Assembly: GCA_017622795.1 (NCBI GenBank)
Contig: JAGAQI010000096.1
Location: 1 to 64,000 of the forward strand
Source of the DNA: Lachnospiraceae bacterium
Lineage (GTDB): Bacteria > Bacillota > Clostridia > Lachnospirales > Lachnospiraceae
DNA length: 64,000 bases
Direction: 5' to 3'
The position numbers and the translations under genes are program-made. Within the stretch, counting starts at the first letter, position 1. Each line of letters begins with the position of its first letter. Under the pieces are notes generated by a model. It made no database searches. It saw only the letters and a list, made by a program, of their open reading frames with translations, and was not told the origin of the DNA. Positions 1 through 64,000 of the stretch are shown here, piece after piece.

Positions 1-1
1 C

Positions 2-769
2 ATTCTCATTCGTGAAATCGGAGAACACATGAAACTGTCTTTTGATATAAAAAGCCTGCTTAACTACGACAATATCAAAGATGATATCCGTGTACGGCTT
101 ATAAACTATGAAGCTAACGAAGAACTCCTTGAAGATCTTCCGCATTTTCGCATGCTGGATTTAGCTGCAATTTTTTATTATAGCATCAATCTCCCGGATA
201 ATTCTATCGGAACTATGAATATCACTCATCAGATGTTAAAAACCTGGGAAATGAGTCCGGAAGATTTCATAAATACCTGCATGCAAAATTTTTATACAAA
301 AGATTATGTCATGATTTCTGATATAAGGGACTCTCTTTACATGCTTGCTGAGAAAACCGGTGCAAACTTTTTTCTTAATGAATTAGAAAAAAGCTTCATG
401 CCTAAGGGCCATCTTTTTGTACTGACAGGAACAAACTGCATCCATGGTGCTTGCATGCTCTTACACACACAAGCCTTACACCAGTTTGCAACAGAACATA
501 ATGATAACTTGATTATTTATCCATCCAGTGTACATGAATGCCTGATTACCTTTGAATCCGATGCAAAAACAGTAAAGATTTCGACAAATGAAGTCGCTGA
601 CATCAATCTTAATATATTAGAACCGGAAGAACGTCTTTCCAACAACGTGTATCTGTACGACCGTCACCTGAAGGAGCTTCGAATTCTTTATCAAGGAATT
701 TCTTTGGCAGAACTTAATGATAGAAATAGCACAATAGAAAAAATCTACGACAGTTTAGGAGGAAATTGA
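2..769 (+). CDS. DUF5688-family protein, 5' end outside the window
   Basis: The frame is open from the left edge of the window, and the residues before the first ATG (position 29) read ILIREIGEH. That fits the linker that precedes the conserved part of this family, so the true start is probably upstream and the gene is partial here. The visible part resembles DUF5688 proteins, which are frequent on Lachnospiraceae mobile elements and have no known biochemical role. Matching segments are RLINYEANEELLEDLPHF near the start and IIYPSSVHECLITF about two thirds along. The next gene, a YqaJ nuclease, follows after 35 bases on the same strand, so they may be co-transcribed. The family call is from memory of the motif pattern, not a search. 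Confidence 0.7.
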   Translation: MLIREIGEHMKLSFDIKSLLNYDNIKDDIRVRLINYEANEELLEDLPHFRMLDLAAIFYYSINLPDNSIGTMNITHQMLKTWEMSPEDFINTCMQNFYTKDYVMISDIRDSLYMLAEKTGANFFLNELEKSFMPKGHLFVLTGTNCIHGACMLLHTQALHQFATEHNDNLIIYPSSVHECLITFESDAKTVKISTNEVADINLNILEPEERLSNNVYLYDRHLKELRILYQGISLAELNDRNSTIEKIYDSLGGN

Positions 770-804
770 TTTCCTTCTTTTTTTCTGTCTGAAAGGAATA
801 AACA

Positions 805-1845
805 ATGGATTTAAATTTGAATTACAAAGCAGAAGTTGTTGTTGATACGGATACATTAAGCCATGAGGACTGGCTGAAATATAGAAGGCTTGGAATTGGT
901 GGAAGCGATGCCGCTGCTATCATGGGGGTATCTCCATTCTGTACTAAACGGGATTTATATTACGATAAGTGTGGTATTACTCCAGCCATGGAGGAAGAAG
1001 AAAGCAACTGGGTAGCCAAGGAGGTGGGACACCGCCTGGAGGATCTGGTGGCAGAAATCTTCTCTAAAAAGACTGGCCTTCGTGTATTTCCAATCCGGAA
1101 AATGTTCCGTCACCCTCTGTATCCGTTCATGCTTGCAGATGTGGATTTCTTTATCAAATTCCCTGACGGTTCCATCGGCATCTTAGAATGCAAGACGACC
1201 AACTACAACTGCCAGGATAAGTGGGCTAACAACTCCACTCCTGTCAACTATGAGTACCAGGGACGGCACTATATGGCAGTCATGAATGTAAACCGCGTGT
1301 ATTTTGCCTGCCTGTACGGAAACAATGAGGACGAATTCTTTATCCGCCATGCAGAACGGGATCTTGATTTGGAAGAAGACTTAATTGCCGAGGAAGAATA
1401 TTTTTGGAACAACCATGTTCTCCCACGGGTAGAACCTCCATATACAGAGAAACCGGACATGGTACTGGAAAGCATCCGTAAGCATTTCGGTCCTGCTGAC
1501 AAAGATGCAGACAAAATTAAATTAAACCGGTCTCATCTTAGCAGTATCCAGAAATATCTGGAACTGAAGGAACAAAAGTCTGCCCTGGAAAGCGAAGCCA
1601 AGAAACTGGAAGAACAGATGAAAGACTCCTACACAGCCATTGTAGAGGAGCTCGGCATTAGCTGTACCGGAATCTTACGGGATGGCGCCACTGAATATGT
1701 TGTTACCTACAATCCGGCTTACCGTACCGGCATAGATAAAAAGAATCTGGAACGGCTAAAAATCAATCATCCGGATGTCTATGATGATTATGTCAGTATT
1801 TCCGAAAGCCGGCGTTTCTCCATCAAGAAGTGTAAGGCTGCCTAA
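805..1845 (+). CDS. YqaJ-type (lambda exonuclease-like) recombinase nuclease
   Basis: This is a predicted 5'-3' double-strand DNA exonuclease of the PD-(D/E)XK superfamily. Such enzymes generate single-stranded tails for an annealing partner in phage- or element-borne recombination. The YqaJ signature GIGGSDAAAIMGVSPF lies at residues 30-45. Likely catalytic residues follow: Glu79 in GHRLED, an Asp at 112 or 114 in LADVDFF, and Glu128/Lys130 in LECKTTNYN. Residues about 240-285 are rich in Lys/Glu/Leu and probably form a coiled coil. The length of 346 aa is normal for the family. It starts at an ATG behind GAAAGGAATAAAC and is followed 20 bases later by a RecD-like helicase, a sensible functional pair. 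A candidate annealing partner is at 46570-47571. Confidence 0.88.
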   Translation: MDLNLNYKAEVVVDTDTLSHEDWLKYRRLGIGGSDAAAIMGVSPFCTKRDLYYDKCGITPAMEEEESNWVAKEVGHRLEDLVAEIFSKKTGLRVFPIRKMFRHPLYPFMLADVDFFIKFPDGSIGILECKTTNYNCQDKWANNSTPVNYEYQGRHYMAVMNVNRVYFACLYGNNEDEFFIRHAERDLDLEEDLIAEEEYFWNNHVLPRVEPPYTEKPDMVLESIRKHFGPADKDADKIKLNRSHLSSIQKYLELKEQKSALESEAKKLEEQMKDSYTAIVEELGISCTGILRDGATEYVVTYNPAYRTGIDKKNLERLKINHPDVYDDYVSISESRRFSIKKCKAA

Positions 1846-1865
1846 TTACAGAAAGGACCACAAAT

Positions 1866-4079
1866 ATGAAATGCAGATTTGTAAAACCAATCTACCAAAA
1901 CAGGGACGATGGTTACTGTATCTTCCTTTACCACACGGAGGATACCGGTGTCCCGGCTCAGGCACAGAATTCCTTCTACAAGGGACGAGGATGCCAGTTC
2001 ACTGCCATCGGCAATAATCTGCCGGACACCGACAAAATAGAAATAGACATTCAGGGAAAATGGATAAAGAACAATCACGGTATGCAGCTTCGGGTAGATA
2101 CCTATGAAGAAATCCTTCCCCATACAGAGGAAGGTATCATCGGCTATCTTTCTTCCGGTATGATTAAGGGCATCGGCCCAAAAACTGCGCAGCTGATTGT
2201 GGACAAATACGGCACACGGACATTTGAAATCCTTGACCGTTACCCGAGCAGCCTGCTGGACATCAAGGGAATTACCCCCGGAAAGCTTGCCACCATTCTT
2301 TCTTCTTACCAGAGCAGTCATGCCCTCCGTGACCTGGCTGCTTATCTGACACCATTCCATGTTACCCCGAACAAAATCAAAAAAATCCATGAGGCCTTTG
2401 GCAGCAATGCACTGGATACGGTTAAGAACCAGCCATTTACCCTCTGCCAAATCAGCGGGTTCGGCTTCCTTACCGTGGATGAAATAGCAAAAGCGAACCG
2501 CTGCCGTTTAAATGACCCAATGCGGATTGAGGGATGCATCCACTACTGCATGGAGCTGGAAATGCAGGAGGGACATTTATATCAGGATAAGAACCTGTTC
2601 CAGAAAAAAGTCTACGAACAGTTAAACCATGGTTACAACACCGAGGTCGTTTCCGAGCGTGAAGTTTACCAGGAGCTGTACCGTCTGGTACAAAGCAAGT
2701 CCCTGTATTACGAAGACAACGCCCTGTACCCGGCAAAGCTTTACGGTTACGAATGCAGTGCTGCAAAAAAACTTGCCACACTGCTTACCCAGGAGTCCAT
2801 CCCTGCCACAGGTATTGACACCCTGATTGCGGAAGCACAGCGTGAACTTGGTATCTTATTATCAGAAAAACAGGCTGAAGGTGTCAAAAAGGCATTCACC
2901 CATTTAGTAAGCATTATCACCGGAGGACCCGGAACCGGAAAAACAACTATCCAAAAGGTTCTTTTATACATCAGCGAAAAGCTTGGAGATAAGAACGTAC
3001 TGCTGACCGCCCCAACCGGGCGGGCAAGCAGACGGATGGCGGAAAGCACCGGTCATCCCGATGCCGTTACCATGCACAGTGCCATGGGGCTTACCAATGA
3101 TGAAGACTGCGAAGCTCTGCCCGATATGCTGGAAGCTGACCTGATTATTGCGGATGAATATACTATGGCAGACATGCGGCTGTCCTATGAGTTCTTTACG
3201 CATATCCCGCTTGGAACCCGTCTGGTTCTGGTCGGGGATGTCAACCAGCTTCCGAGCGTGGGACCGGGCAACGTCTTCCGGGAACTCATCCAGTGCGGTG
3301 TTATTCCGGTTACCGTCCTTGATATGGTCTTCCGGCAGGCAGAAAACAGCAGGATTGCGGTCAATGCCCACCGCATGCAGGAAAACAATGCCATGCTTGA
3401 TTACGGTACAGGTTTTGAACTGGTAGAAGTTGCGACAGCTGAAGAAGCTGCAGCCATTGTTGAAAAAGCATACCGCGAAGAAGTCACCCGTCTTGGTGTA
3501 GACAAAGTTCAAGTACTGACTCCCTTCCGTAAACGCGGAGATGCCAGTGTGGATTCCTTAAATGCAAGACTCTGGGATATTGTAAACCCGGCGGCTCCTG
3601 ACAAAGCGGAAATCAAAACCGGCAAACGCTCCTTCCGCTCCGGCGACCGGATTATCCATAATAAAAACCGGAACGAAATCAGTAACGGTGATGTCGGCTA
3701 TCTTGGCTCTATCTATGAAGATGAGGATGGAACACCTCTTGTAAAACTAACATTTTCAGAAGGACGTATGGTAGATTACACTACGGAGGAACTTGACATG
3801 ATAGAACATGCCTATGCCACTACAGTACATAAAAGCCAGGGTTCCGAATACCCGGTTGTTATTCTCCCTTGGCTTCCAATGTTCTATAAAATGCTGCGCC
3901 GCAATATTCTCTACACTGCGGTTACCAGAGCCAAAGAAAAGGTTATCATAGTCGGTAGCAAGCGGGCCATTTACCAGGCCATCCACAACACGGGAAGCGA
4001 CAACCGTAATACACGGCTTGGTGAACGTATTTCGAGGGAATATTACCGAATGCTTGCTGAGAAAAAGATTGCTGTTTAA
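1866..4079 (+). CDS. RecD2/TraA-like SF1B DNA helicase
   Basis: This is a predicted ATP-dependent 5'-3' DNA helicase of the RecD2 type. An N-terminal OB-like region is followed by a helix-hairpin-helix segment (IKGIGPKTAQLIVDKYG, around residues 100-117). The Walker A motif GGPGTGKTT is at about residue 353, and the Walker B region LIIADEYTMAD is near residue 427, with Glu-Tyr-Thr where many relatives have Glu-Ala/Phe-Ser. The C-terminal UvrD-like motif TTVHKSQGSEYP is near residue 652, followed by LYTAVTRAK. The 737 aa length matches RecD2. No RecB or RecC neighbour is present, as expected for RecD2. It follows the YqaJ nuclease closely, and a strong hairpin about 45 bases after its stop ends the unit. 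The role in element recombination or transfer is inferred from context. Confidence 0.88.
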   Translation: MKCRFVKPIYQNRDDGYCIFLYHTEDTGVPAQAQNSFYKGRGCQFTAIGNNLPDTDKIEIDIQGKWIKNNHGMQLRVDTYEEILPHTEEGIIGYLSSGMIKGIGPKTAQLIVDKYGTRTFEILDRYPSSLLDIKGITPGKLATILSSYQSSHALRDLAAYLTPFHVTPNKIKKIHEAFGSNALDTVKNQPFTLCQISGFGFLTVDEIAKANRCRLNDPMRIEGCIHYCMELEMQEGHLYQDKNLFQKKVYEQLNHGYNTEVVSEREVYQELYRLVQSKSLYYEDNALYPAKLYGYECSAAKKLATLLTQESIPATGIDTLIAEAQRELGILLSEKQAEGVKKAFTHLVSIITGGPGTGKTTIQKVLLYISEKLGDKNVLLTAPTGRASRRMAESTGHPDAVTMHSAMGLTNDEDCEALPDMLEADLIIADEYTMADMRLSYEFFTHIPLGTRLVLVGDVNQLPSVGPGNVFRELIQCGVIPVTVLDMVFRQAENSRIAVNAHRMQENNAMLDYGTGFELVEVATAEEAAAIVEKAYREEVTRLGVDKVQVLTPFRKRGDASVDSLNARLWDIVNPAAPDKAEIKTGKRSFRSGDRIIHNKNRNEISNGDVGYLGSIYEDEDGTPLVKLTFSEGRMVDYTTEELDMIEHAYATTVHKSQGSEYPVVILPWLPMFYKMLRRNILYTAVTRAKEKVIIVGSKRAIYQAIHNTGSDNRNTRLGERISREYYRMLAEKKIAV

Positions 4080-4323: not shown

Positions 4324-4827
4324 TTATTTTATTTCAAATTCTGTGAAAAACTCTGTGGACTTTCCTTTCTCATCACATAATGTAAACACTAATTTATATG
4401 TTCCCGATTGTAAATTAGCAGCGCCAATTCCAGGCACAGTAATGCGCCCTGTTTCTCCAGGAAAAAAACCATACCCCATCAAATTTGAAAGACCGCCTTC
4501 GCTTGGTATTACTTTTTCCCAGGAGTCTTTATTGAATCTATATAGACTGCTCTTTTCACTCGGCAAAATATATGTATTAATGGTTTTATTTTTTAGCAGG
4601 AGATAAAAATCCCCATTAGCATTATAAAATACAGTGCCTTCAAAATTTACCACTTCACCTGTTACTGTATCAATTGAAACAGGTATCTCTTGTAGAAACT
4701 TGTGTTGCTTAACAGAAAGAGTTTTCTGGTTTATAATGATGAAGAAAACTAACAGGATAGCTAAAAATACGATTGTTGAAATAACTTTTAAGACATGTTT
4801 TTTCGTTGATAACACCTCTCTTTTCAA
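4324..4827 (-). CDS. Membrane-anchored protein with a bacterial Ig-like domain
   Basis: A basic N-terminus is followed by one hydrophobic segment at residues about 14-32 (VISTIVFLAILLVFF), with no lipobox, so this is probably a signal anchor with the rest outside the cell. The exported part ends in the pattern VPGIGAANLQSGTYKLVFTL, resembling small Ig-like domains found in Firmicutes lipoproteins in which a G-x-Y-K-L strand closes the fold. The function is unknown. It is the last gene of an AT-rich minus-strand block headed by a membrane-tailed ECF sigma factor, so it may belong to that regulon. Reading by pattern only; the Ig-like call is moderate. Confidence 0.6.
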   Translation of the reverse strand: MKREVLSTKKHVLKVISTIVFLAILLVFFIIINQKTLSVKQHKFLQEIPVSIDTVTGEVVNFEGTVFYNANGDFYLLLKNKTINTYILPSEKSSLYRFNKDSWEKVIPSEGGLSNLMGYGFFPGETGRITVPGIGAANLQSGTYKLVFTLCDEKGKSTEFFTEFEIK

Positions 4828-4940
4828 GTATGTATTTACTCAAATATCTTCCCATTCATTATAAATACTTCTGTTATATTCACTCGTCTCATATTTTCAA
4901 ACATTTGACAGTTAACAAAAAGTATAGAGTTCCATTCCAA

Positions 4941-5372
4941 TCAATATATAATTTCAACCAATATAACTTCTTCTACTGAATAGTGCTTTTCATAATTGCT
5001 ACTTAAAAAACTTTCTGCAAGGCTTGAAAATGTAATATCGTCTATATTACTTAGACAAATTAGTGTAACGCCCGAAATAGCATTATGAGTTCTTCCTGAT
5101 AAAATAACTCTATCTTTATAATACCAATTTTCTGTTTTCCATCTTCCATCTGAAAGTTCATAATATGTACGCACCCGTCCATCTTTATCTGATTTTTCAT
5201 AGGTCTGAATTATGTCATCTTCTGATGTGTTCGTACTATCGCTATCAGACATTTCATACGTATAAATTACATCGTCATCTTGTTTGTCCGTATTATCATC
5301 CATACTGCTTCTACATCCAGACATAGCTAAAACGCATACAATCAAGCAAATAACTATTATTTTACCAGTCAT
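4941..5372 (-). CDS. Small predicted lipoprotein, unknown function
   Basis: The N-terminus has a lipoprotein signal: a short basic start, hydrophobic core and lipobox LAMSGC with the lipidated Cys at about residue 19. The segment after it is acidic and low in complexity. It contains the near-repeat VIYTYEMSDSD and IIQTYEKSDKD, then RTYYELSDGRWKTENWYY, so one Y-E-x-S-D unit appears about three times. The C-terminal half has no feature I recognise. It belongs to the secreted-protein block downstream of the ECF sigma gene. No enzyme motif is seen. Confidence 0.65.
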   Translation of the reverse strand: MTGKIIVICLIVCVLAMSGCRSSMDDNTDKQDDDVIYTYEMSDSDSTNTSEDDIIQTYEKSDKDGRVRTYYELSDGRWKTENWYYKDRVILSGRTHNAISGVTLICLSNIDDITFSSLAESFLSSNYEKHYSVEEVILVEIIY

Positions 5373-5456
5373 GATTCATTAGTACTCCCTTATTCATAAA
5401 ATTCAAACGGGTTTGCTACAATAGCATAATAATATAAGCAATTTTCTCTGGCATGC

Positions 5457-5960
5457 TCAACCAAACTCCATTCGCCCCATTTTGAACGAATCGTATTTCC
5501 TGATGTAGATATCACTATGCTCGTTTCCGGGCATTGTATAATAAATGATTTGTCCGGGTTGCATTGTTCTTCCTGTACCTACCCTTGTATATGACCCATC
5601 TGTCATAAGAGGAGTTGGGTCATTTAACCAGTAATACGAAGACCCCAACCATGCATATGCGTGGCAATTATATACAGATGTAGCATCACCAACAACATTG
5701 GATCCTATATATTCCGTTTCTATATATTCCTCAAGACATTCTCGAATCTAGTATGCTTCGTCAACACCAGTAAATATTCCCACTTCTACCCATGAGCCTC
5801 CAGGTGTTAGTATTAAAATCCACTGATAATCTCCCCTCGAATCATTAATCCTTCTTTCTGTCGCTAACGTCTCTGTATTTTCACAGCATAACGCTTCTCG
5901 CACAATTGAATTATTGTATTGCATTTGTGCACTTATATAAGCAACTTCATCATCACTCAT
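5457..5960 (-). pseudogene. CHAP/amidase-like secreted protein gene broken by an amber stop and missing its 5' end
   Basis: Two open stretches, 5960-5748 and the part ending at 5457, are in the same frame and are separated only by a TAG at 5750-5748. Reading through that stop gives continuous protein containing VYNCHAYAWLGSS and then WLNDPTPLMTDGSY. This resembles the N-C-H-x-Y-A-W motif of a family of small secreted Cys-His (amidase-like) proteins in Clostridia. No signal peptide is present: in-frame stops occur just upstream of the first Met, so the 5' end also looks lost or degraded. It sits among secreted and lipoprotein genes. It could be decay, a sequencing error or amber read-through; decay is favoured because the start is missing too. 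Confidence 0.6.
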
Positions 5961-6003
5961 TTGTATACATAAAGTTGACTAGATTTAAAAATTCATTTTC
6001 ATA

Positions 6004-6690
6004 CTATTCACAAACCAGTTCATAAGTATCTTCGATTTGCTTCTTAATCTGTTTTGCTGAAGTGTCTTGATATTCTATTATTGATTTTGCAACAACTTCT
6101 GTAACTGTTCCATCCACCCAACTTTCCATGCTATATTCAGCAAGAGTTTCTACTCGTAATAATTCCCATTTTTTTGAATAACAAAGAGTTATTTGATTTT
6201 TTTTATATTTCTGTGCACTTTCTATAGGTAAAGAGCTAAACTCAATGTAATATTCACCATTTTCTTCTTTCCAGGAAACAATTGAATTCTCAGAAAACTG
6301 TTCTGCAGTATCCTTTTTTACGCCAAACGGACCAAAAGCACCAATTTCCTTTGTTTGTATCCAGTTTTCATTCACAGAAGTTTTTGTATATACTTTATCA
6401 TCGTATTGAATGCGTGTTGTTATAATTCCATCACTCTGTTTTCCTACATACAAACAATTACCGTCTACATACCAGCGCTCAATTTCCACAGTGTCGGTTC
6501 CTTCAGGATAAGTAATTGCGGTAGTTTCCACTGTATGAAGAGCTTCTCCGCTTATTTTTTCTAACGCCGACTGGGTTTTCTCAACAATTTCTGAAGCCTC
6601 CATGGAAGAAAAATCTTTTTCAGCAGAGCAACCCACTCCTAAAACAAGCGAAAGCACAATTACGCTAAAGATTTTTTTGCTTTTCCCCAT
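6004..6690 (-). CDS. Predicted lipoprotein (228 aa)
   Basis: A lipoprotein signal peptide ends in LGVGCS, with the Cys at residue 21. The mature part has a Ser/Glu-rich start (MEASEIVEKTQSALEKI) and a region of alternating strands (IERWYVDGNCLYVGKQ, KVYTKTSVNENWIQTKE). This looks like the LolA/LppX-like beta sheets of Firmicutes sporulation or envelope lipoproteins (DUF6612 and similar), an uncertain resemblance. No catalytic residues are recognised. It lies between the broken CHAP-like gene and another damaged secreted-protein gene in the sigma-headed block. Intact and probably expressed. Confidence 0.65.
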   Translation of the reverse strand: MGKSKKIFSVIVLSLVLGVGCSAEKDFSSMEASEIVEKTQSALEKISGEALHTVETTAITYPEGTDTVEIERWYVDGNCLYVGKQSDGIITTRIQYDDKVYTKTSVNENWIQTKEIGAFGPFGVKKDTAEQFSENSIVSWKEENGEYYIEFSSLPIESAQKYKKNQITLCYSKKWELLRVETLAEYSMESWVDGTVTEVVAKSIIEYQDTSAKQIKKQIEDTYELVCE

Positions 6691-6726
6691 ATTCTCAATC
6701 CATCCTTCTACACATAATTTTCATGT

Positions 6727-7429
6727 TTAATTTGCAGAAACATCATAATATCCCGGCCCCACTTCCAGCCGCAAAATTCCAGTAAAATATACAGGAAGTC
6801 CTCCTAAATTTTCATCATATATCTCTATACCAAATGAAGCTGAATACTCAATATAGGCAGGTTCTGTTTCTGTTCTCTGAACACGGCCTCCCAAATACGA
6901 CCACATAGCAACAGAGACTCCCAGCCCTGGAATAATTGTTTCCGGCTCATACACCTCACCTAAATTAATAATTGATCCTGGCGCATTTTCTCTTACAATA
7001 AAAGACACATCATTCACTATAAAAGTATCTTCACTAGATGGACACTGTAACCACATATTTATACTGTAAATTACAACACCAGAACCCATATCGTATTCAT
7101 AGGTCTGGTTCTTACCCGCCACAATGCCGAATGCATAAGTAGACATTCCATTTGCATATTCCGTATAGGAAACAACCTCGTCCTCAGATAACCAACGGGT
7201 CTCACTAAATGTAATCTGATTGTCCGCCACGCCTCTTGACAAATTATTATTTATGGCAGAAATATTTTCTCCACGTATTTTTACACTATACTCAGGAAAA
7301 TGCTTCTATTGCTTTGGACATTACATATTCTTTAGTTATTACATCTTCCATTGTTTCAATGTTTTCAGCTGCTAATACCTTTACTCTTGGCGAAACAAGA
7401 AACAACATAAACCTAAACATTCTTTTCAT
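6727..7429 (-). pseudogene. Secreted protein gene with a frameshift near its 5' end
   Basis: The long frame has no good start: its first possible codon is a TTG at 7242 with no ribosome site. Farther upstream, an ATG at 7429 stands behind AAAGGCGG and encodes a basic start, a hydrophobic core and VLAAEN, a plausible signal-peptidase site. That frame runs through KEYVMSKAIEAF and stops near 7297. Shifting frame around 7300-7310 joins it to HFPEYSVKIRGENISAINNN and the rest of the protein. The body (GSGVVIYSINMWLQC, GPGYYDV) is not recognised. One frameshift, real or from sequencing, explains this best. Confidence 0.6.
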
Positions 7430-7468
7430 ATAATCGCCGCCTTTCTTTCGTTAAACATATTTTGGGAC

Positions 7469-8293
7469 TTACTGAATATTGTTCCAATCAAGTTCCTCAA
7501 GCCAAGGATTGTCTTCCCAATTCTTTTCAATTTCATCAAAAGAGTAATCCTCACCATTAACATTAATACTACTTTTTTTCGATATCTTTCCATCCATATA
7601 CAACTTATATGCTCTTCCTAATTCAACAATCTCCAAGGTATCTTTTGTATCTTCAGTCAGATATCTTTTAATTTGTGCAATCATATCCTCTGCCCAAGAA
7701 TACACTGGCTTTGCAAAAAAAGCTGTCAACAAAAGTATTGCTATAATTATTGCAAACCGTTTCATTTTCTTCAGTTCCTGCAAAGCACGATACAATCGCT
7801 TTTTTACTGTAGTTTCTTTCACCCCACAGTTTTCTGCAATCTCCTTTAAGGTCTTATCTTGAAAATAATGTTGATAAAATATATCTCTTGTCAATTCATC
7901 TTTTGTAGCTAAATAATCCATAACCTCCTTTGCAGTTAATTTATCAACTAGCATATCCTCCCACTCTTTTTTATGAGAAAGTTCCTTTGCAGCATAAGTA
8001 CTACCTTGATTTGATGCTTCCACCTGCAAATAAGCGCGCTGTCGCTCTTTCTCACTATAATAGCGATACACTTTACTTCTCGCCAGTTGCATCACAAAAC
8101 CTTCCGGAGCGGATATGTACTCAACACCCTTGTCTGACAAAACCTTGAACAGTTCTGCATAAGTGTCCTGTAAAATATCCTCTACTTCTGGGATTCTCCC
8201 GCACTTTGTCACAATATAAAAAACTACTTTGTCATAAGTCAATTGATACATTTGCACAAATACACTATCTACATTCTCCAACGGAGTCACCAC
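7469..8293 (-). CDS. ECF-type sigma factor with a C-terminal membrane anchor and extracytoplasmic tail
   Basis: Residues about 20-90 form a sigma region 2 (VEDILQDTYAELFKV, then a Tyr/Arg-rich core). Residues about 115-175 form region 4 with a helix-turn-helix, TLKEIAENCGVKETTVKKR. Unusually, the protein continues past region 4 into a hydrophobic helix at about 180-196 (FAIIIAILLLTAFFA) and an 80-residue acidic tail that should lie outside the membrane. A self-contained membrane-tethered sigma needs no separate anti-sigma gene, and none is adjacent. The start is a GTG at 8293. Downstream genes all encode exported or lipid-anchored proteins, suggesting an envelope-stress or surface regulon. 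The extracytoplasmic tail as sensor is an inference. Confidence 0.85.
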   Translation of the reverse strand: MVTPLENVDSVFVQMYQLTYDKVVFYIVTKCGRIPEVEDILQDTYAELFKVLSDKGVEYISAPEGFVMQLARSKVYRYYSEKERQRAYLQVEASNQGSTYAAKELSHKKEWEDMLVDKLTAKEVMDYLATKDELTRDIFYQHYFQDKTLKEIAENCGVKETTVKKRLYRALQELKKMKRFAIIIAILLLTAFFAKPVYSWAEDMIAQIKRYLTEDTKDTLEIVELGRAYKLYMDGKISKKSSINVNGEDYSFDEIEKNWEDNPWLEELDWNNIQ

Positions 8294-12112: not shown

Positions 12113-12137
12113 ACATGTGTTCCTCCCTGTGTTTTTC

Positions 12138-12166: not shown

Positions 12167-12209
12167 GAGGAATTTTCTGCCCTGCCAACATTCCATATTA
12201 CATTAAACC

Positions 12210-12251: not shown

Positions 12252-12300
12252 TAAACCTATAATTATTTTGTAATCAGTTGCCAAAGGAGCGTGGTTCTAT

Positions 12301-53040: not shown

Positions 53041-53053
53041 TCATTCATCCCTC

Positions 53054-54841: not shown

Positions 54842-54859
54842 AACAATCACCCTTCTTTC

Positions 54860-55711: not shown

Positions 55712-55804
55712 CTTCTTTTGTCCTTTCTCTTGAAATAAAAAAAGAGGAATCACACCCAAAGCATTTTCGCCATAGTTGCAATTCCTCTTGTGCCGCTTAA
55801 AACT

Positions 55805-56245
55805 TTAATTAAACGGTAATCCATTTGGTCCACAGTTCTCATAAGCAGGAAAACCACCTGTATAATCCGGAATGGATTCTTCAGCAGATTCCGCTCCAGT
55901 TTCTTCAGAACTCTTTGGACGACCTGTAAGTGCATAGCTCCAGTTCATTACCTGGATTTTTGCCATCCAGCCGGTAGAGTTGTTATTTCTCTTGTACTCC
56001 ACAAGCTCCTGGTCTCCGATAATCTGGATTGCACTTCCCTTTTTTACTTTTGCATCAATCATTCGTTGTGCGTCTTCACCATAGACAATGCAGTTGTAGA
56101 AGTTAGGATGGGTGTTCTCACCATACCCTCTGTTGACAGCAAGGCCAAATGCGACATACTTGGTGTTCTTACCGTTCTGACTCAGTTTCAGCTCAAGGTC
56201 TGCCGTTACCCGTCCTGTGGTGATGATAGTTACTGGATCATTCAT
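55805..56245 (-). CDS. ssb: Single-stranded DNA-binding protein
   Basis: The start at 56245 follows AGAAGGGAG. The OB-fold is evident: TIITTGRVTADLELKLSQNG, KYVAFGLAVNRGYGENTHPN with FYNCIVYGEDAQRM, VKKGSAIQIIGDQELVEYKR and the final strand AKIQVMNWSYALTG. The C-terminal tail is acidic and ends GPNGLPFN, similar to the SSB interaction tip. It is an element-borne SSB, expected to protect transferred single strands. The promoter at 56413-56441 probably starts its transcript, which then crosses a hairpin. Confidence 0.9.
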   Translation of the reverse strand: MNDPVTIITTGRVTADLELKLSQNGKNTKYVAFGLAVNRGYGENTHPNFYNCIVYGEDAQRMIDAKVKKGSAIQIIGDQELVEYKRNNNSTGWMAKIQVMNWSYALTGRPKSSEETGAESAEESIPDYTGGFPAYENCGPNGLPFN

Positions 56246-56282
56246 GTTTCTTTTCTCCCTTCTTGGATTAAATTTTTGTATT

Positions 56283-56335
56283 AAAAAAAGTGCCAAAAGA
56301 CTGCCATTTCATAAATGGTAATTCTTCTGACACTT
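56283..56335 (-). terminator. Hairpin with T run between the SSB promoter and gene
   Basis: On the minus strand AAGTGTCAGAAGAATTACCA and TGGCAGTCTTTTGGCACTT form a long imperfect stem around a short loop, followed by TTTTTTT. It can end toxin-antitoxin read-through, but it also sits downstream of the SSB promoter, so the SSB transcript must pass it. Confidence 0.65.
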
Positions 56336-57120: not shown

Positions 57121-57804
57121 TTACACCAGTTGAAATACAATCCGCTGTTTCATGTAAAGGTTAGCCACTGCAGATAGTATAGTATATCTGATTTCAGAGA
57201 ATCTTCCTTCTGTAACAAGTTTTTCACAATCATCATCTTCCTCCGGATACAGGCATTCCATCAGTTCCTCGTTATCCTTCAGACTTATTTTACCCTTTTC
57301 TGTACACCGGATCAGTTCTGCGATGGAAAGCGTCTGGTTCTTCACAAGGGCGAGAATCTGTTTTTCTTCCGTTTCCAGCTTTTCCTTATGAAATACTCCT
57401 ATCGCTTTTTTCCAAGGCATCTTCTTACATAGTGTTAGTTTCATAAAAGATAACACCTTTTCCGGCCATCCGTCCGGCACCGGCTGTACATGCAGATGTC
57501 CTAACAGATTATAAAGTGCATCTGCACCGGTACAATCTTTACCGGATACTACCAGTCCACGCATCATCAGTCTGTGCAGGCAATGGTCAAACTCCATCTC
57601 ATCCGGAATATCAAGCTCCATCATATGCATATAAAACTTTTCTTTCAGTTCCTTGTATGTTAAAATCCGGAACGCAAGATCGCTCCATAGCAATAATTCA
57701 CATGGAACCAAACCATATTCCTTATTTCCGGACACAATCGTTGGTAACCCTCTGTTTCCCAACTTATATGTTCCAATTGCTGTATATAATGTCATCACAC
57801 TCAT
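57121..57804 (-). CDS. Uncharacterised protein, possibly winged-helix (227 aa)
   Basis: A soluble protein with no recognised domain. EMEFDHCLHRLMMRGLVVSG looks like the recognition helix and wing of a winged-helix fold, and a second helical half (LSIAELIRCTEKGKISLKDN) could be another. The middle is Trp/Lys-rich (CKKMPWKKAIGVFHKE). It follows the sigma factor gene by 13 bases and is probably co-transcribed with it, suggesting a regulatory function. Ribosome site AAGGGAGAGG. Confidence 0.55.
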   Translation of the reverse strand: MSVMTLYTAIGTYKLGNRGLPTIVSGNKEYGLVPCELLLWSDLAFRILTYKELKEKFYMHMMELDIPDEMEFDHCLHRLMMRGLVVSGKDCTGADALYNLLGHLHVQPVPDGWPEKVLSFMKLTLCKKMPWKKAIGVFHKEKLETEEKQILALVKNQTLSIAELIRCTEKGKISLKDNEELMECLYPEEDDDCEKLVTEGRFSEIRYTILSAVANLYMKQRIVFQLV

Positions 57805-57817
57805 CCTCTCCCTTTAC

Positions 57818-58372
57818 TTATGCTGCGTATTCTGTTCTCATCTTCTGAAGTGCTCTGGATACCCAGGCAGATACATGATTTGGTTTTACGCCGAAATGTC
57901 TGGCGATTTCATCCCCGTCATGTCCCTGGTATCTTAACCGCAATGCTGCTATTCCCTTTTTAGCTATACCGGTGAACTGCTGCTCCATCTGGTCAAGCAT
58001 GAAGTCTGTCTCACGGTCAGATATTCCATGCTCTTCTTTGGCGCATAAAACATCACCATATGTAATATTTTCGTTATCTGCTACAGGAGCATCTAAATAA
58101 CTGAGAGGAGCCTGAATCCTGCTGATTTTCCTGCAGTGGGATAACAAACTGTTTTTGATTACCACATCTGCAAAGGTTACAAAAGATGCTCCCCTGTCTT
58201 CCCTGTAAGTGACAGCTGCTTTACACAGTGCTTCACATCCTGTCTGATATAAATCCTCATATCCTAATCCCTGTATATTTTCATTGATGGACATGGTGCC
58301 CCTTACAATCCTGTTTACCAGCTCCAAATGCTCTTCCACTAATCGTTGTTCCTTCTTGGTCATAATCCCCAT
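57818..58372 (-). CDS. Sigma-70 family RNA polymerase sigma factor
   Basis: Region 2 runs from about residue 12 to 85 (EEHLELVNRIVRGTMSINEN, GLGYEDLYQTGCEALCKAAV with FVTFADVVIKNSLL). Region 4 is at about 135-180 with a helix-turn-helix GHDGDEIARHFGVKPNHVSA. Region 3 is short. At 184 aa it resembles the small sigma factors of Clostridia elements more than FliA or SigF. It may direct transcription of the conjugation or pilus genes encoded around it. Ribosome site GTGAGGTGG. Confidence 0.88.
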   Translation of the reverse strand: MGIMTKKEQRLVEEHLELVNRIVRGTMSINENIQGLGYEDLYQTGCEALCKAAVTYREDRGASFVTFADVVIKNSLLSHCRKISRIQAPLSYLDAPVADNENITYGDVLCAKEEHGISDRETDFMLDQMEQQFTGIAKKGIAALRLRYQGHDGDEIARHFGVKPNHVSAWVSRALQKMRTEYAA

Positions 58373-58403
58373 ACTTCCACCTCACTTTCCTCCTGCAACG
58401 TTA

Positions 58404-58820
58404 TTAAACCGCAACCGTGATATGATTGTTTCTCAGTACTTTTCTGCATTCTTCTATCAAACAATCACAACGGTACTCCGAAAATTCACCGATATGGGCC
58501 TGTGTATCCGTCAGGCAGAAAACATCCTGCATCCACCGGTAAGCATCCTTCCGGGAGAAAACGCCATTCTTCCAGATTGCATCAAATAAACGATGGGCTT
58601 CAATTCTCTTATGCCGCAGGTCACCATTTGCCAGTGTTCCTTTGGGAACCAGGGTTCCTTCATGGACTCCAACATAAGCATCACATTCAGGATACCCACT
58701 GCATACATAGAGATTCTTTTCGGATGTAGCATCTTTATATACATACCGGGCACTTCTCAATACCGCATTACGTCCACAATACGGACACTTTACGGAATAT
58801 TTTCTTGCTTTCTTTCCCAT
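58404..58820 (-). CDS. DUF3268-type zinc-finger protein
   Basis: The N-terminus has a zinc ribbon: KCPYCGRNAVLRSARYVY and then YVCSGYPECDAYVGVH, a C-x2-C...C-x4-C arrangement with phrases typical of DUF3268. The C-terminal half is helical (HRLFDAIWKNGVFSRKDAYR) and ends SEYRCDCLIEECRKVL. The function is unknown, and such proteins are common on Clostridia conjugative elements. Strong ribosome site AAAGGAGGAAA. Confidence 0.8.
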   Translation of the reverse strand: MGKKARKYSVKCPYCGRNAVLRSARYVYKDATSEKNLYVCSGYPECDAYVGVHEGTLVPKGTLANGDLRHKRIEAHRLFDAIWKNGVFSRKDAYRWMQDVFCLTDTQAHIGEFSEYRCDCLIEECRKVLRNNHITVAV

Positions 58821-58958
58821 GACGATTTCCTCCTTTCAGTCGCTTTTTTGAATACGTATTCTGTAAGTATATTTTAAAATAAATTAAGGATGAATCCTAT
58901 GGCACTGCCGCAGATTCTTAAGTCATTTGCGTCTATTCTGCCAGTTTCTGGCAATTTT

Positions 58959-59183
58959 TTAGTTACCAAACAGTTCCGTAATCTCCTGGGTGATACGTGG
59001 AATAACCGTTGTATTAAAAATAGTGGTCAGGGCACCTAATAACAGTGCACCCAGCACTACGGCGATGATAATCTTAACACCATCAGAGATGTAGAAATCA
59101 CCTCTCTCGTTCTTTAATACCGCCTTTACACGGCTGATTACATTCCCAGTTTTTAAAGCTACCTTATTCATCATTTTTCTCAT
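58959..59183 (-). CDS. DUF6133-type small membrane protein, pilin-like
   Basis: The start at 59183 behind AAAAGGAGA gives MRKMMNKVALKTGNVISRVK. A short basic leader is followed by ERGDFYISDGVKIIIAVVLG, with a hydrophobic helix to about residue 58 (ALLLGALTTIFNTTVI) and a polar end. A basic leader, a Gly-Asp-containing junction and a single N-proximal helix are the layout of Flp/class III pilins. It directly follows the TadC/TadB/TadA genes, so a pilus subunit is likely, though the cleavage site is not certain. Confidence 0.7.
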   Translation of the reverse strand: MRKMMNKVALKTGNVISRVKAVLKNERGDFYISDGVKIIIAVVLGALLLGALTTIFNTTVIPRITQEITELFGN

Positions 59184-59308
59184 TTTTGTTTTCTCCTTTT
59201 TCTCAATCATTGTTTTGTTCTCTATGTCCGGCTGTATACCGGCTTTTATAAGTTACCTTTCCTTCTTTCCCTGCATCACATAAGCCCCGCCTCCTTTCTC
59301 TGCAGATA

Positions 59309-60184
59309 CTAAAAGAAGCCTCCTAAAGAACTGACAACTTCTACAGACAGTACTACGACATAAATAAGCAGAATGCAGAACAGCATCATCATGGAATACT
59401 TCTGCATCTGTTTTGGCCGTTTGGCTGCCTCCTTCTTTAAGTTGTTCTGTTCAATCTGGCGCATATCAAATACCAGCATCTTAAAATACATCTGCTGGTC
59501 GTCACCGCGAAGAGTGCCAATCAGTCCGCGGACAATATCCGACAGCATGGTGCTGCCAACCCTGTTCTGTAACCGGAGCAATGCATTTTCATAGTTTCCG
59601 GTCTTCATATCCGCAATCGTAGTGTCCAGTTCCTGTCCAAGATGCGGTCCGGCAATACGCCGGTAGGAAATCAGAAGTTTCAGCACATCCCTGTCAGTAC
59701 TAAGGGACTGCTGAATACTGACTGCAAACCTTGGGAGCTCTGCTTCAATCAGCTTCTTTCTCTTTTTTACAATGTCAAATACCTGATGATAGGAAGAAAA
59801 CCACATCAGAACAGAGAGCCCCATGACTGCAAATCCCGCCATCGGAATAAGCAGCAATAAAAAAAGCCCTGCAAACAGGGTCAGTAAAGCCATGAGTATT
59901 GCCTTCATGGTGTAGCTCTCCGGTGTCAGGTTCATCCCCGCAATGTGCAGAGCCGCTTCCAGCTTACTCCGTTTAATAGGATCCATTTTTAAGATTGGGC
60001 TTAATTTTTCCGCAATCTTGGTGATGTATACTTCCATCAGTTTTTCATCACCGGTACCGGTCTGCTTTTTTGCAAGCATCATTGCCCGGGAGGTTTTTGC
60101 CGTCGGTACATCCACAAACGCACACGAGAGATTGTAAATACCAAATCCCACAAATATGGAAGCCAGTATTACTAAAACTGCCAT
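59309..60184 (-). CDS. TadC-like inner-membrane platform protein
   Basis: A 291-residue membrane protein with an N-terminal helix (VLILASIFVGFGIYNLSCAF), a central double helix (ILMALLTLFAGLFLLLLIPM and a following one) and a C-terminal helix (MMMLFCILLIYVVVLSVEVV). A T2SS-F-type cytoplasmic domain with PRFAVSIQQSLSTDRDVLKL lies between. It follows TadB- and TadA-like genes, so it would be part of the assembly platform of a Tad-like pilus. Ribosome site GAAAGGAAG. Confidence 0.82.
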   Translation of the reverse strand: MAVLVILASIFVGFGIYNLSCAFVDVPTAKTSRAMMLAKKQTGTGDEKLMEVYITKIAEKLSPILKMDPIKRSKLEAALHIAGMNLTPESYTMKAILMALLTLFAGLFLLLLIPMAGFAVMGLSVLMWFSSYHQVFDIVKKRKKLIEAELPRFAVSIQQSLSTDRDVLKLLISYRRIAGPHLGQELDTTIADMKTGNYENALLRLQNRVGSTMLSDIVRGLIGTLRGDDQQMYFKMLVFDMRQIEQNNLKKEAAKRPKQMQKYSMMMLFCILLIYVVVLSVEVVSSLGGFF

Positions 60185-60201
60185 ATGTTTTTTCTTCCTT
60201 T

Positions 60202-61122
60202 CTATGTGTTATATTCCACTGGGCGGCTGAGTTTTAGAATCTTGGTAAACGAGAAAAGAATAATAGCCGCACAGATGGCCAGCGTAATCTTTCCCGGTGT
60301 GGAAAACATCAAAGTTTCAAACCAGGCTTTATTCAAAACATATAAAAGAGGAATGTTGCCTATCACAAGAAACATCATAGTAATTGCTTCCTTCTTTGGC
60401 TCATTTATCATCGCCTCCAGCTCTGACTGCATAATTCTCATGTCAGAAAACTTCTGCACCGTAAAAGTCAGCGTATTCTTCATGCTTCTGTCACTCTGGC
60501 ACTGGATTAGCGTATTGCACCACTCATGGAAAATACGATTTGGTACTCTCATCTTCAGAGTGTTAATAGTTGAGATCATATTGGCATTTAACATCTCCGA
60601 CTCCAGCACAAATGCCTCGAAATGATTTTTTACCGGAGGATTTAAATAAGGGATATTTTCCTTTACGGACTTTAATATGTCCCCGGTGCGAAGATATGAA
60701 GTGGTAATCACTGAAATTGCTGTTTCCAGTTCCTCATTCAGGTGCTTTTTATAGGACGCCGCTGTGGATCTTAAATACCATACCGGTGCAAATGCAAAGC
60801 CGGCACCCATAATCGGTATCATGAACGGATTATCAATCAGAATAGCTGCAATGGCGCCAACGGAGAACAAAATAATGGAAATTCTCTTTACCATATTAAA
60901 TCTGCCTTCCCTTCCGGTGGCAATCAACAGCTGCTCAATCTCTAATGTCTCCCTGTTAAAAAATCCTTTCGCCGGTTTTCCAAGCAGCACATCCACATCA
61001 TCCTGCAGTGTACTTTTGGCCTGTGGAGATAAAAGGTTTAGGAAATCAATAAAGCGTACATGAAAGAGTGAAAACAGCCCGCTAACTATCAGCAGGAATA
61101 CAATAATCTGAACCCATTGCAT
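60202..61122 (-). CDS. TadB-like inner-membrane platform protein
   Basis: A 306-residue protein with helices at the N-terminus (VQIIVFLLIVSGLFSLFHVR), about residues 82-120 and near the C-terminus (LAICAAIILFSFTKI). The cytoplasmic domain contains LNEELETAISVITTSYLRTG and SDRSMKNTLTFTVQKFSDMR, the T2SS-F pattern. The gene starts inside the last 41 bases of the TadA-like gene, indicating translational coupling. Together with the TadC-like protein it forms the expected platform pair. Confidence 0.82.
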   Translation of the reverse strand: MQWVQIIVFLLIVSGLFSLFHVRFIDFLNLLSPQAKSTLQDDVDVLLGKPAKGFFNRETLEIEQLLIATGREGRFNMVKRISIILFSVGAIAAILIDNPFMIPIMGAGFAFAPVWYLRSTAASYKKHLNEELETAISVITTSYLRTGDILKSVKENIPYLNPPVKNHFEAFVLESEMLNANMISTINTLKMRVPNRIFHEWCNTLIQCQSDRSMKNTLTFTVQKFSDMRIMQSELEAMINEPKKEAITMMFLVIGNIPLLYVLNKAWFETLMFSTPGKITLAICAAIILFSFTKILKLSRPVEYNT

Positions 61123-62509
61123 TCATTGTTCCTCCTCTCATTGCCCCATTCTCATTAGAATCCAAAAATAGTTTCAACTTTCCTGCCGGAATACCGTTAT
61201 CTAACATCCGTTTTTTCAAAGACTCTGAAATTCCGCCAAGCTTCCTGTGGCTGCCAAGAACTGTAATCTTGCCATTCTCATCCGTGCGGTTATCTTCCAC
61301 ATCATACTGATACAACGGACGGTAATACAGTTTTCCGTTCCGGTAATCCTCACCCTCGATAATCTGCATGATTTTTCTGGATCCATCTTCTAACTGCTTG
61401 GTAAATACAACTATCGGATATGCCTCCACCATAATCTGCATCAGGATATCATCCGCCATATTATATTTTCTCTTTGCAAGCGTCATCATACGACGGTAGG
61501 TAGATTCCGAGGAATTGGAATGGATGGTAGTTACAACGGTGTGGCCGGTTCTGGAGCTTTCCGCAACCGACAACGCTTCCTTGGCAGAACGCATCTCGCC
61601 GACACCGATTACATCCGGATGCTTTCTAAGCACACGCTCCAAAAGAACATCCTGGTCAATGTCCAGTGCCGGGTTTTCATGGGGCCTGGTAAGCAGGTGG
61701 ACGACGCTGTTAATGGCATGTCCGTTCTCATCCCTCTTAATCAAATCAAATTCCCGGCTTCCTTCTTCAATGGTAATCAGTCGCCGGTTGTCCGGCACCA
61801 TGGAAAGCAGCCAGCTCATAACCGTTGTTTTTCCGGAACCGGTACTGCCGGCAATACAGACCGACACACCATACCGGATGCAGCAGGTTAAGAAATCTAA
61901 CATCTCCTCTGTTGCGGAACCCGAAGCAATCAGCTTATCCTTGGATACCGACTGCTGGTTGACAATTCGGATGGAAGCATTGATTCCTACCTCTGCGTCT
62001 ACAATCGGCGTCTTATCTACGGATATACGGATATTTTTATCTAAGAATCCGATAACTGACGGCATGGTATCATCAATTACCATACCGCAGGTGTTAAGAA
62101 GACGTCGGGTTACATCCACGGCATGCTGCGGAGACTGAAACCGGTCCGGAATTTTCATGGAACGTCCACCGCTCATAATAACTTCGATATCATCAAAGGC
62201 ATTGATGTTTACCTCTTCAATCCCCGGTTTGTAAATCCATTTCTTTAAAAAAGAGATTCCAGCCATATCCTCAAACAGGCTGTCCTTTAATTCCTCCGTT
62301 CTCATTCCATCGATATGATAGGATTTACTGAGGATATACTGCAAAATAAATTCTTTTAATAACAGTTTTGCCTCTTCCTGATTTCCTTCCGTGGTTAACT
62401 TATCCGCATGGTTTACAGTGCAGTATTTCTGTACATCCTCCAAAATCTGGTCATACGTTACCACCTCCTGCCCGGCAGAAGCAAAAAACATATCATTCAA
62501 TGACTGCAT
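61082..62509 (-). CDS. TadA/CpaF-type secretion ATPase
   Basis: A 475-residue hexameric-type ATPase. Walker A is CIAGSTGSGKTTVMSWLLSM near residue 217, followed by the Asp box LITIEEGSREFDL, Walker B RHPDVIGVGEMRSAKEALS and the His box GHTVVTTIHSNSSES. The N-terminal domain has the FLKKWIYKPGIEEVNINAFD region seen in CpaF. It would power pilus assembly or substrate export. Its start overlaps the CpaE-like stop by 17 bases. VirB11 of type IV secretion is related, but the TadB/TadC neighbours favour the Tad type. Confidence 0.9.
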   Translation of the reverse strand: MQSLNDMFFASAGQEVVTYDQILEDVQKYCTVNHADKLTTEGNQEEAKLLLKEFILQYILSKSYHIDGMRTEELKDSLFEDMAGISFLKKWIYKPGIEEVNINAFDDIEVIMSGGRSMKIPDRFQSPQHAVDVTRRLLNTCGMVIDDTMPSVIGFLDKNIRISVDKTPIVDAEVGINASIRIVNQQSVSKDKLIASGSATEEMLDFLTCCIRYGVSVCIAGSTGSGKTTVMSWLLSMVPDNRRLITIEEGSREFDLIKRDENGHAINSVVHLLTRPHENPALDIDQDVLLERVLRKHPDVIGVGEMRSAKEALSVAESSRTGHTVVTTIHSNSSESTYRRMMTLAKRKYNMADDILMQIMVEAYPIVVFTKQLEDGSRKIMQIIEGEDYRNGKLYYRPLYQYDVEDNRTDENGKITVLGSHRKLGGISESLKKRMLDNGIPAGKLKLFLDSNENGAMRGGTMNAMGSDYCIPADS

Positions 62510-63338
62510 CCATAGCCTCCTCCTCTTTCTTTAATCCCTGTTGTTCTTCCAGAACTACTTCTGTTCCGTCCGGCAGGTCTGCAGGCTCTTCTTCCTGCTC
62601 CTCCTGTGGTTCTTCCAGACGTTTTCTCACCAGTTTAAGTGAACTCAAATAACGCTGATTGCAATACCCCAGTGCTTTAAACATCTGTCCGCTGGTACCG
62701 CACCTCTCAATTTCCTTCGAGTAAGGAAGTAACCCATCAAACCCTCCAATCAGATTATCCATCTCATCAATGGCATGGAACGGTCTTGCCAGCCCTGCAA
62801 AGGTCAGATGCTTGTCATAATGAAATTTCTCATCCGTCAGAAGAGCCTTATGTGCTTTTAAATAATTCAGGCCTCTGAGGTCCGGTGTAACAATCCGGAT
62901 GACCAGATCCGCTGCTTCAATCGCGGACGGAGTAAAAAAGTTCAGCATATTCGAGCTGCAATCCAGAATAATATAATCCACCAGTTTAGATGCTTCCGTA
63001 ATAAACAGTTTGATTTTTTCATACTTCAGCTCCGGATAAGAAAATGGATTTTCACCTGCCGCATACCCCATTACACCGATAAACGGATACTCCTTCAAAA
63101 TCACCACCCGTTCTGCAATCAATGCATTATTAATCTCAAGTCCGGTCAGTACATTACCAATGGAAGAAGCTGTTTCAATCATCCGCTCCGGCATCCATAC
63201 CGGAAGCATCGGTGTACTGGAGTCCGCGTTAATAACCAGTGCTTTCTTTTTATCTGCTGTCAAAACTTTTGCAAGATTACAGCAAAACATGGACTTACCG
63301 CACCCCGGGTTTCCCCATACTGTAATAATCTTTGACAT
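62493..63338 (-). CDS. CpaE/MinD-like ATPase of the Tad locus
   Basis: The start at 63338 follows TAGGAGGTG. The P-loop is VWGNPGCGKSMFCCNLAKVL, a deviant Walker A in which Gly-Asn-Pro-Gly-Cys-Gly-Lys-Ser replaces the ParA-type KGGxGKT. The second motif is LVINADSSTPMLPVW, and the later IILDCSSNMLNFF is the switch-like Asp strand. The C-terminus is very acidic (EEPQEEQEEEPADLPDG). In Tad systems such proteins localise the machine to a cell pole. It lies between the CpaB-like and TadA-like genes. Confidence 0.82.
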   Translation of the reverse strand: MSKIITVWGNPGCGKSMFCCNLAKVLTADKKKALVINADSSTPMLPVWMPERMIETASSIGNVLTGLEINNALIAERVVILKEYPFIGVMGYAAGENPFSYPELKYEKIKLFITEASKLVDYIILDCSSNMLNFFTPSAIEAADLVIRIVTPDLRGLNYLKAHKALLTDEKFHYDKHLTFAGLARPFHAIDEMDNLIGGFDGLLPYSKEIERCGTSGQMFKALGYCNQRYLSSLKLVRKRLEEPQEEQEEEPADLPDGTEVVLEEQQGLKKEEEAMDAVIE

Positions 63339-63350
63339 GATGTACACCTC

Positions 63351-64000
63351 CTATGGCAGTTCTTCCTTTTCAAATTCCGGTTCATAAACCATGTCCTCCT
63401 CGTCCTCAGAGAAAGAATCCTCCGTCCAGTCATCCGACAAATTTTCCTCTTCTTCATTAGGATCCATATCTTCGTCCGGTGTTCCGTAGATTTCCTCTAA
63501 AACCTGTTCCTGACGCAATAACAGTTCTTCCGCCAGTTTCGCATTACCACGGCTTACTAAAGCCACATGTAATACTCCCTCATTTTCAAACCGGGTAAGC
63601 AGCATTGCCTGCTCCGGTGATGCCAGCACAGTAATTGTTGCTGTCTGCTGTTTTTCCTCATCTTCATTGAGCGGCTTTGTGTAATCTACGTCCAGGCCGT
63701 CTGCATCACTAATGGACAACACCTTAATAAATCGAAGCTCCGGTATATCTTTTACCGGTTCTTCTTCCTCCTCTTCGTTATAATGGTAGAGGCGGACAAT
63801 ATCCCCATCCTGCAGTTTATCCGAAAGCGCGGTAGCCAGTGTCTGTGTAGTAATGGATAACACCACCTTGCCATCCGGGATTTCATTTAACATAGGATCC
63901 GAAGACACCGGTGTACTGCTTACCTTTTCCGCAAGAATATAGTCTCCCGGATATAAATCAGCAGCTACATAAATTCCTACTACATCCGTTTCCTTCTTGG
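63351..64000 (-). CDS. CpaB/RcpC-like SAF-domain protein, N-terminus outside the window
   Basis: The frame is open to the right edge, where it encodes GIYVAADLYPGDYILAEKVS, the beta-clip (SAF) pattern of CpaB/RcpC, so the apparent GTG start inside is not real. The next part (SITTQTLATALSDKLQDGDI) is also typical of CpaB. A long acidic C-terminal tail follows (about 50 residues rich in Glu and Asp). CpaB proteins are periplasmic or wall-side parts of Tad pili. Here it is the first Tad gene visible and leads into the CpaE-like gene. Confidence 0.75.
   Translation of the reverse strand, partial: KKETDVVGIYVAADLYPGDYILAEKVSSTPVSSDPMLNEIPDGKVVLSITTQTLATALSDKLQDGDIVRLYHYNEEEEEEPVKDIPELRFIKVLSISDADGLDVDYTKPLNEDEEKQQTATITVLASPEQAMLLTRFENEGVLHVALVSRGNAKLAEELLLRQEQVLEEIYGTPDEDMDPNEEEENLSDDWTEDSFSEDEEDMVYEPEFEKEELP

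Follow-up and report, generated by a model that had tools for sequence, protein, structure and literature searches.

A predicted oligosaccharide island in the cargo slot of a conjugation-type element from Lachnospiraceae

Does a block of glycan-related genes lying between recombination genes on one side and segregation and pilus genes on the other belong to the chromosome of its host, or is it the cargo of a single mobile element? The question is raised by a 64,000-base stretch of DNA from a Lachnospiraceae bacterium (the window; bases 1-64000 of the 91,448-base contig JAGAQI010000096.1, assembly GCA_017622795.1). The original prediction for this locus was a 28-kb glycan island between two arms of one element, by which a complete oligosaccharide pathway could move between gut bacteria. 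Relative genomes are labelled with G numbers below; the host genome is G000, and G151 and G152 are its congeners. Genes were named by profile scans with Pfam, PHROG and NCBIfam. We put a probability of about 0.85 on the reading that the window lies on a conjugation-type element whose slot, between a ParR-like gene and an xre-sigma-like gene pair, holds an oligosaccharide island of about 28 kb from an AT-richer lineage, the xre gene having been lost. The element comprises a Tad-type pilus, a CD1115-family VirD4, a VirB4-like ATPase, ParM/ParR segregation and its own recombination and SOS genes.

The two arms (1-14.8 and 43.85-64 kb) are parts of one element. In G151 a single contig carries, in the order of the window, the YqaJ, RecD2, ParB, polymerase, SRAP, resolvase and sigma-like genes, a 36.9-kb cargo, and then ParR, ParM and the rest up to the last backbone gene, with the resolvase on the opposite strand relative to the window. 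Both arms thus flank other cargo in G151, which excludes the case in which they never occur together, named at the outset as fatal to a single element. Between positions 44135 and 81668 G000 and G151 were 95.7% identical (37,545 columns), whereas their chromosomes, compared over 7,833 columns, were 81.3% identical, and the right arm was therefore exchanged after the hosts had parted; exchange of the backbone between congeners thus postdates the divergence of their chromosomes. The left arm, aligned in three pieces averaging 83.6%, shows no sign of recent exchange. Relative to G102 and G035, the window and G151 both carry an inversion running from the ERF-like gene to ParB.

Relatives of the element were found more widely. 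ParM was matched at E<=1e-80 in 19 of 397 genomes of the host family, G000 counted in, and at the looser E<=1e-20 in 43 of 150. Near-identical elements occur in three genera (G102, G235 and G194, 97.9-99.9% in long pieces), the G102 and G235 copies sharing 99.6-99.9% in long pieces from the end of a GMP synthase gene onward. A further pair labelled as different genera, G149 and G046, is 99.99% identical over 88.7 kb and was dropped as a case of transfer: the identity passes both fetched ends and may instead reflect shared chromosome or contamination. Megablast of both arms against plasmids gave no match, while searches at the protein level did match plasmids. Among phage records ParM was matched in 13 unannotated faecal contigs, and a VirB4 scan of viral contigs returned one locus, which lacked ParM.

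The slot was surveyed at 24 loci, 22 in genomes and two on plasmids. The genes at its edges had been expected to be adjacent in relatives lacking the island, and this was the case at all 11 empty loci (10 genomes), where ParR is followed by an xre-type gene, present in each, and the sigma-like gene, with a ParR-sigma gap of 806-928 bp. These loci are not independent, as they form five groups with less than 70% identity between groups. Plasmid OY725878 has a gap of 1.9 kb. Filled slots measured 29.1 kb in G000, 36.9 kb in G151, 5.8 kb in G013, 22.8 kb in G363, 11.8 kb in G371 and 53.7 kb on plasmid pMM35_02, and their contents differ from one to the next. By Pfam the G151 cargo encodes NeuB, a cytidylyltransferase, UDP-GlcNAc epimerase, UDP-glucose dehydrogenase, a flippase and glycosyltransferases, and is a NeuB-type surface-polysaccharide biosynthesis cluster. 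The G363 cargo holds a phosphotransferase system and a glycoside hydrolase (GH) of family GH1, those of G013 and G371 hold ABC transporters, and that of pMM35_02 carries, by its annotation, redox genes, a site-specific integrase and dockerin/cohesin genes. G013 and G363 retain the xre gene, whereas the G000 slot showed none and the G151 slot gave no good match. Several empty-slot loci carry cargo beyond the sigma-like gene instead. The titles of the open-licence literature yielded no paper on a ParR/xre-sigma cargo slot.

Within the slot of G000, the island occupies 15482..43321 as 23 genes on the minus strand, each matching a Pfam family. They encode an SDR protein, DUF624, DUF4886, an AEC transporter, an alpha/beta hydrolase, a TIM-barrel isomerase-like protein, MgtC, EutH, PHP and HAD proteins, a class II aldolase, lyxose isomerase, a PfkB kinase, GH38, a beta-lactamase-like protein, GH36, a GDSL protein, a GH88-like protein, a metallophosphatase, an AraC-type regulator, a binding protein and two permeases. 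The co-oriented, AT-rich block of importer, regulator and hydrolase genes was thus as predicted, although its extent was not: the gap between the backbone genes, from 14784 to 43849, is 29,064 bp instead of 28 kb from 14.9 kb. The GC content at third codon positions (GC3) averaged 0.283 in the island (0.21-0.34, n=23), against 0.461 in the left-arm core (n=8) and 0.442 in the right arm (n=37), with no gene-by-gene overlap with either arm (Mann-Whitney U=0, p=2e-11). A chromosomal reference, a single stretch of 12 genes on contig C58 of G000, had a GC3 of 0.442, like the arms and unlike the island. Plotting GC and codon use, as had been proposed, thus separated the island from both arms, and its composition is foreign.

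What the island does was read from its gene order. The binding protein, the two permeases and a sensor-type AraC regulator stand at one end; onward follow the GH38, GH36, GH88-like and esterase-like genes, and then isomerase, kinase and aldolase. We read this as a predicted system that takes up an oligosaccharide containing mannose and galactose, and perhaps uronate, and degrades it in the cytoplasm. As in a Gram-positive polysaccharide utilisation locus (gpPUL), a transporter, an AraC-type regulator and GH36, GH38 and GH88-like genes share one co-oriented cluster; a complete importer including its ATPase is not part of it, as Pfam found no ABC ATPase domain in the 23 proteins. The claim of a complete pathway accordingly fails, because a binding protein and two permeases are present without an ATPase. 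Shared host ATPases are known for importers of this class.

The origin of the island was approached through its hydrolases. GH38 was matched in only three of 396 other genomes of the host family, at 31-32% identity, and the GH88-like gene in 33 of 390 other genomes of the class, with a best identity of 39% and all of the listed matches outside the host's family. A scan of 84,980 species for GH38 gave 43 loci, 15 at 70-79%, 27 at 52-59% and one partial match at 67%. The 15 best, from uncultured Clostridia, are labelled Oscillospiraceae, Clostridia, Clostridiales, Ruminococcus or Bacillota, and six titles name a ruminant gut site; of the predicted movement between gut bacteria, the gut setting rests on such titles of relatives' records. 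In three congeners, island positions 30000-43300 had no match longer than 395 bases. The island thus looks foreign and assembled. Separately, a HAD gene like that of the island lies near GH38 at 26 of the 43 loci, at L068 alone accompanied by PfkB, lyxose isomerase and aldolase genes, and this widespread GH38-HAD pair (window region 23469-29838) may mark a sugar pathway that has no name.

The backbone continues beyond the window to about 81.7 kb of the contig, with VirD4, the VirB4-like gene and other transfer genes. A transfer ATPase and a coupling protein, as expected of an integrative and conjugative element (ICE), are thus present further along this contig, beyond the window. VirD4 scored 428 bits with the CD1115 profile (cut-off 250), which links the element to CD1110/CD1115-type Firmicutes ICEs; the VirB4-like protein is nearest to CD1110 at 269 bits, under the cut-off of 325, and the Tad-type pilus and ParM/ParR are further differences from those ICEs. 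The CD1110 and CD1115 NCBIfam names derive from Clostridioides difficile elements. The last backbone gene had only weak initiator or helicase-loader matches.

Two related backbones are plasmids of Oscillospiraceae, the circular 247.5-kb OY725878.1 of Subdoligranulum variabile and the 142.5-kb pMM35_02 (NZ_AP023417.1) of Vescimonas fastidiosa. Both share with the window's element VirB4 (64-65%), ParM (49-52%), VirD4, a TrbL-like protein and the last gene (51-57%). OY725878 also shares the Tad genes in one order (61-73%, CpaF 73%), and pMM35_02 likewise carries its 53.7 kb, including the dockerin/cohesin genes, between its ParR and an xre-sigma-like pair. They differ in being plasmid records with other cargo and in matching the slot pair weakly (24-31%), and pMM35_02 has sortase pilins in place of Tad genes. 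Overall, the element is a further example of the known cargo-bearing ICEs and plasmids. According to the parts of the ImmeDB survey available to us, gut mobile elements carry polysaccharide utilisation and capsule loci (PMC6907783), and the present element family resembles them in having cargo genes for breaking down glycans and for building capsules; in the same parts, mucus-glycan hydrolases and capsule loci are enriched only in Bacteroidetes elements (PMC6907783), whereas the element described here is of Firmicutes type and a single slot holds catabolic cargo in one copy and biosynthetic cargo in another. PMC11913394 and PMC12503163 deal, for related gut genera, with carbohydrate loci and with transfer.

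Several observations weigh against the reading of a transferable element with an island taken up into its slot. No whole copy of the island was present among the 43 GH38-bearing loci, so that its movement as a unit, as predicted, was not borne out. Most of the closest GH38 loci have a lower AT content than the island (GC 0.37-0.48, 16 loci), which weakens a simple donor story. The sigma-like gene is weakly matched in G363 (30%), G371 (32%), pMM35_02 (24%) and OY725878 (31%), and the limits of the slot are therefore less sure in these four; six of the 24 loci (G149, G046, G342, G119, G356 and G152) gave no slot reading. No relaxase was recognised in the backbone genes scanned, which did not include every small gene, and the two related plasmids are classed as non-mobilizable in PLSDB. 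Finally, the G000 assembly is metagenome-like and fragmented (147 contigs, 86.6% complete), and on sequence alone a join in it may be chimeric.

The ends of the element bear on whether the copy in G000 is still mobile. In G151 a Mn-catalase gene, which we take to be a cotJC-like spore-coat gene, is split (C31:96505-96918 and C66:81576-81773; L138:11573-13474). Its residues 1-138 lie at the right end of the element and residues 133-198 on another contig beside a 523-aa large serine recombinase, the two contigs overlapping by 95 bases. In G152 catalase residues 1-136 abut the same backbone end. In G000 the cotJC-like gene is intact and the G151 recombinase had no match (in G152 only its first 57 residues were found, at 100%, on another contig), so the window's copy sits elsewhere than that of G151. 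A tyrosine integrase lies beside GMP synthase on a 3.6-Mb contig in G102, and together with the G151 serine recombinase this indicates that the family uses several integration modules. For the window's copy, no integrase or attachment site was found on the contig, and the left end lies off it; the contig ends do not overlap, and the first 37 bases of the contig do not recur in the G000 genome. Scans of the 64-kb window for tRNA and Rfam matches were empty, which leaves the window without a visible tRNA attachment site. The right end diverges from G151 just past 81,668, and its flank was not found in the congeners. The genes beyond 82 kb have a chromosomal-looking GC3 of 0.473, and those at 82-91 kb, including GH43 and a MraW-family methylase, we read as chromosomal. 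As a side observation, the contig at 82-91.4 kb (L002, L003) has an extra methylase gene of the MraW/RsmH family, flanked by an esterase gene and a GH2 gene.

The mobility predicted for this copy was thus left without a recognised relaxase or an integrase on the contig, and of the alternatives the one that survives best is that the G000 strain holds a degenerate, immobile remnant or a plasmid fragment, and not an ICE. The missing integrase, the lack of a G000 match to the G151 serine recombinase, the intact cotJC-like gene, the unlike right end and the existence of related full-length backbones as plasmid records all favour it. However, the backbone genes are open and 80-100% like those of G151 across most of the right arm, and the flank reads as chromosomal; we regard a remnant as possible, and the less probable outcome.

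An unlikely alternative is that the island entered as a mobile unit of its own, a transposon or integrative island, and not by recombination. Its borders are sharp, pMM35_02 has a site-specific integrase within its cargo, and we read integrase-like genes in some other cargos. Yet Pfam found neither transposase nor integrase among the 23 island genes, no direct or inverted repeat longer than 11 bases was shared by the two borders, and the xre gene is missing. The borders carry gene scraps, as predicted. That on the right is a sound AraC-type regulator tail (43592..43771, plus strand; HTH_18, E=1.1e-9, profile positions 30-78 of 80), directly followed by a hairpin and a T-run-like stretch. The supposed GGDEF tail on the left (14971..15390, minus strand) is a degenerate scrap with a weak match (E=0.17, profile positions 126-159 of 161 only), so this half of the prediction is doubtful.

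A false join of the island to the arms, made in assembly or binning, would suit the fragmented assembly and the sharp change in composition at both edges; it would, however, need two independent chimeric joins, both at the edges of a slot that is cargo-filled in five other records, and we hold it to be improbable. The least probable reading makes the glycan genes a long-standing part of the host chromosome, with separate mobile fragments that landed on either side: the edge scraps, the lack of a recognised integrase and the chromosomal-like composition right of 82 kb would suit it, but in G151 the two arms surround other cargo with their order and orientation unchanged, the slot is closed at 11 loci, positions 30000-43300 lack long matches in the three congeners and the host family has almost no GH38.

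Under the reading we prefer, of a conjugation-type element with cargo in its slot, the island would have entered by recombination, no flanking repeats or transposase being seen, and cargo may be replaced by recombination across the slot edges. Such edge recombination fits the genes there, as between G000 and G151 the ParR-like (52% aa) and sigma-like (39%) proteins are far less alike than ParM (91%) and the resolvase (82%). The sensor-type AraC regulator would switch the operon, the importer would borrow an ATPase of the host, and released sugars would pass through the isomerase and PfkB kinase to the class II aldolase.

The gene content predicted for the arms, with recombination, SOS and resolvase genes on the left and segregation, primase, SSB and pilus genes on the right, was confirmed. 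On the left, DUF5688, YqaJ recombinase and RecD2 helicase genes (29..4079, plus strand; 83.6% nucleotide identity to G151 over 472-4080) precede a second AT-rich insert (4324..8293, minus strand) of three genes for an Ig-like protein, a small protein that we read as a putative lipoprotein and a sigma-region-4 protein. Its GC3 is 0.287 and its codon usage correlates with that of the island (r=0.944); it is absent from G151, where RecD2 and ParB are 0.3 kb apart. There follow a ParB-like gene (8739..10181, plus strand; Pfam ParB_N, PHROG 6218; 91% aa to G151) and, on the minus strand, Y-family polymerase and SRAP peptidase genes (10850..13205), a small serine resolvase/invertase (13351..13965; Pfam Resolvase, PHROG DNA invertase), with an 85% aa match in G013 that also adjoins the slot there, and the sigma-like gene at the left slot edge (14347..14784; PHROG 1740, and Pfam sigma region 4 with a score under Pfam's cut-off). 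Nucleotide similarity to G013 ends at 14771.

The right arm lies on the minus strand, and similarity to G152 begins exactly at 43849, the start of the ParR-like gene at the right slot edge (43849..44229), so named from its position beside ParM. The names ParR, TadB and TadC are our assignments: ParR and TadC match no Pfam family, and TadB has a chance-level match only. The ParM-type actin (44236..45162, Pfam) has 91% and 90% aa identity in two congeners. The genes at 45302..56296, by Pfam a CHC2 primase zinc finger, methylase-like, AbrB, VWA and AAA genes and SSB, together with a recombination-type gene, are 96-100% aa identical to G151 gene by gene; the recombination-type gene (46570-47571) matches no Pfam family and is presumably ERF. 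Sigma-like, zinc-ribbon and Tad-type pilus genes (CpaF, TadB, TadC and CpaE-like; Pfam T2SSE/CpaF and CpaE-like AAA) occupy 57121..63908, at 80-99% aa to G151.

The split gene of G151 has parallels in the sporulation gene-intervening elements described in PMC5595907, the available passages of which do not mention cotJ. Like skin, SPbeta/spsM and gin in gerE, the G151 element splits a gene, here its cotJC-like gene, and it carries a large serine recombinase at the join. Unlike these, it is of conjugation type and not a prophage, and the likeness holds for G151, probably also for G152, but not for the copy in the window. No paper titled on insertion into cotJC by a recombinase or conjugative element was found among titles of the open-licence literature.

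Tentatively, then, we may be dealing with one element family, present in several genera in plasmid and integrated form, whose exchange site beside parMR alternates between glycan-breakdown and glycan-building islands, and whose insertion in a spore-coat gene could tie excision to sporulation. The same backbone and slot carry cargo to eat a glycan in one species and to make a surface glycan in a congener, a route by which a clostridial lineage could change a large metabolic capability in one step. The occurrence of empty, filled and differently filled slots makes the mechanism of exchange testable, and the cotJC-like gene split in two congeners does the same for a link between a conjugative element and sporulation.

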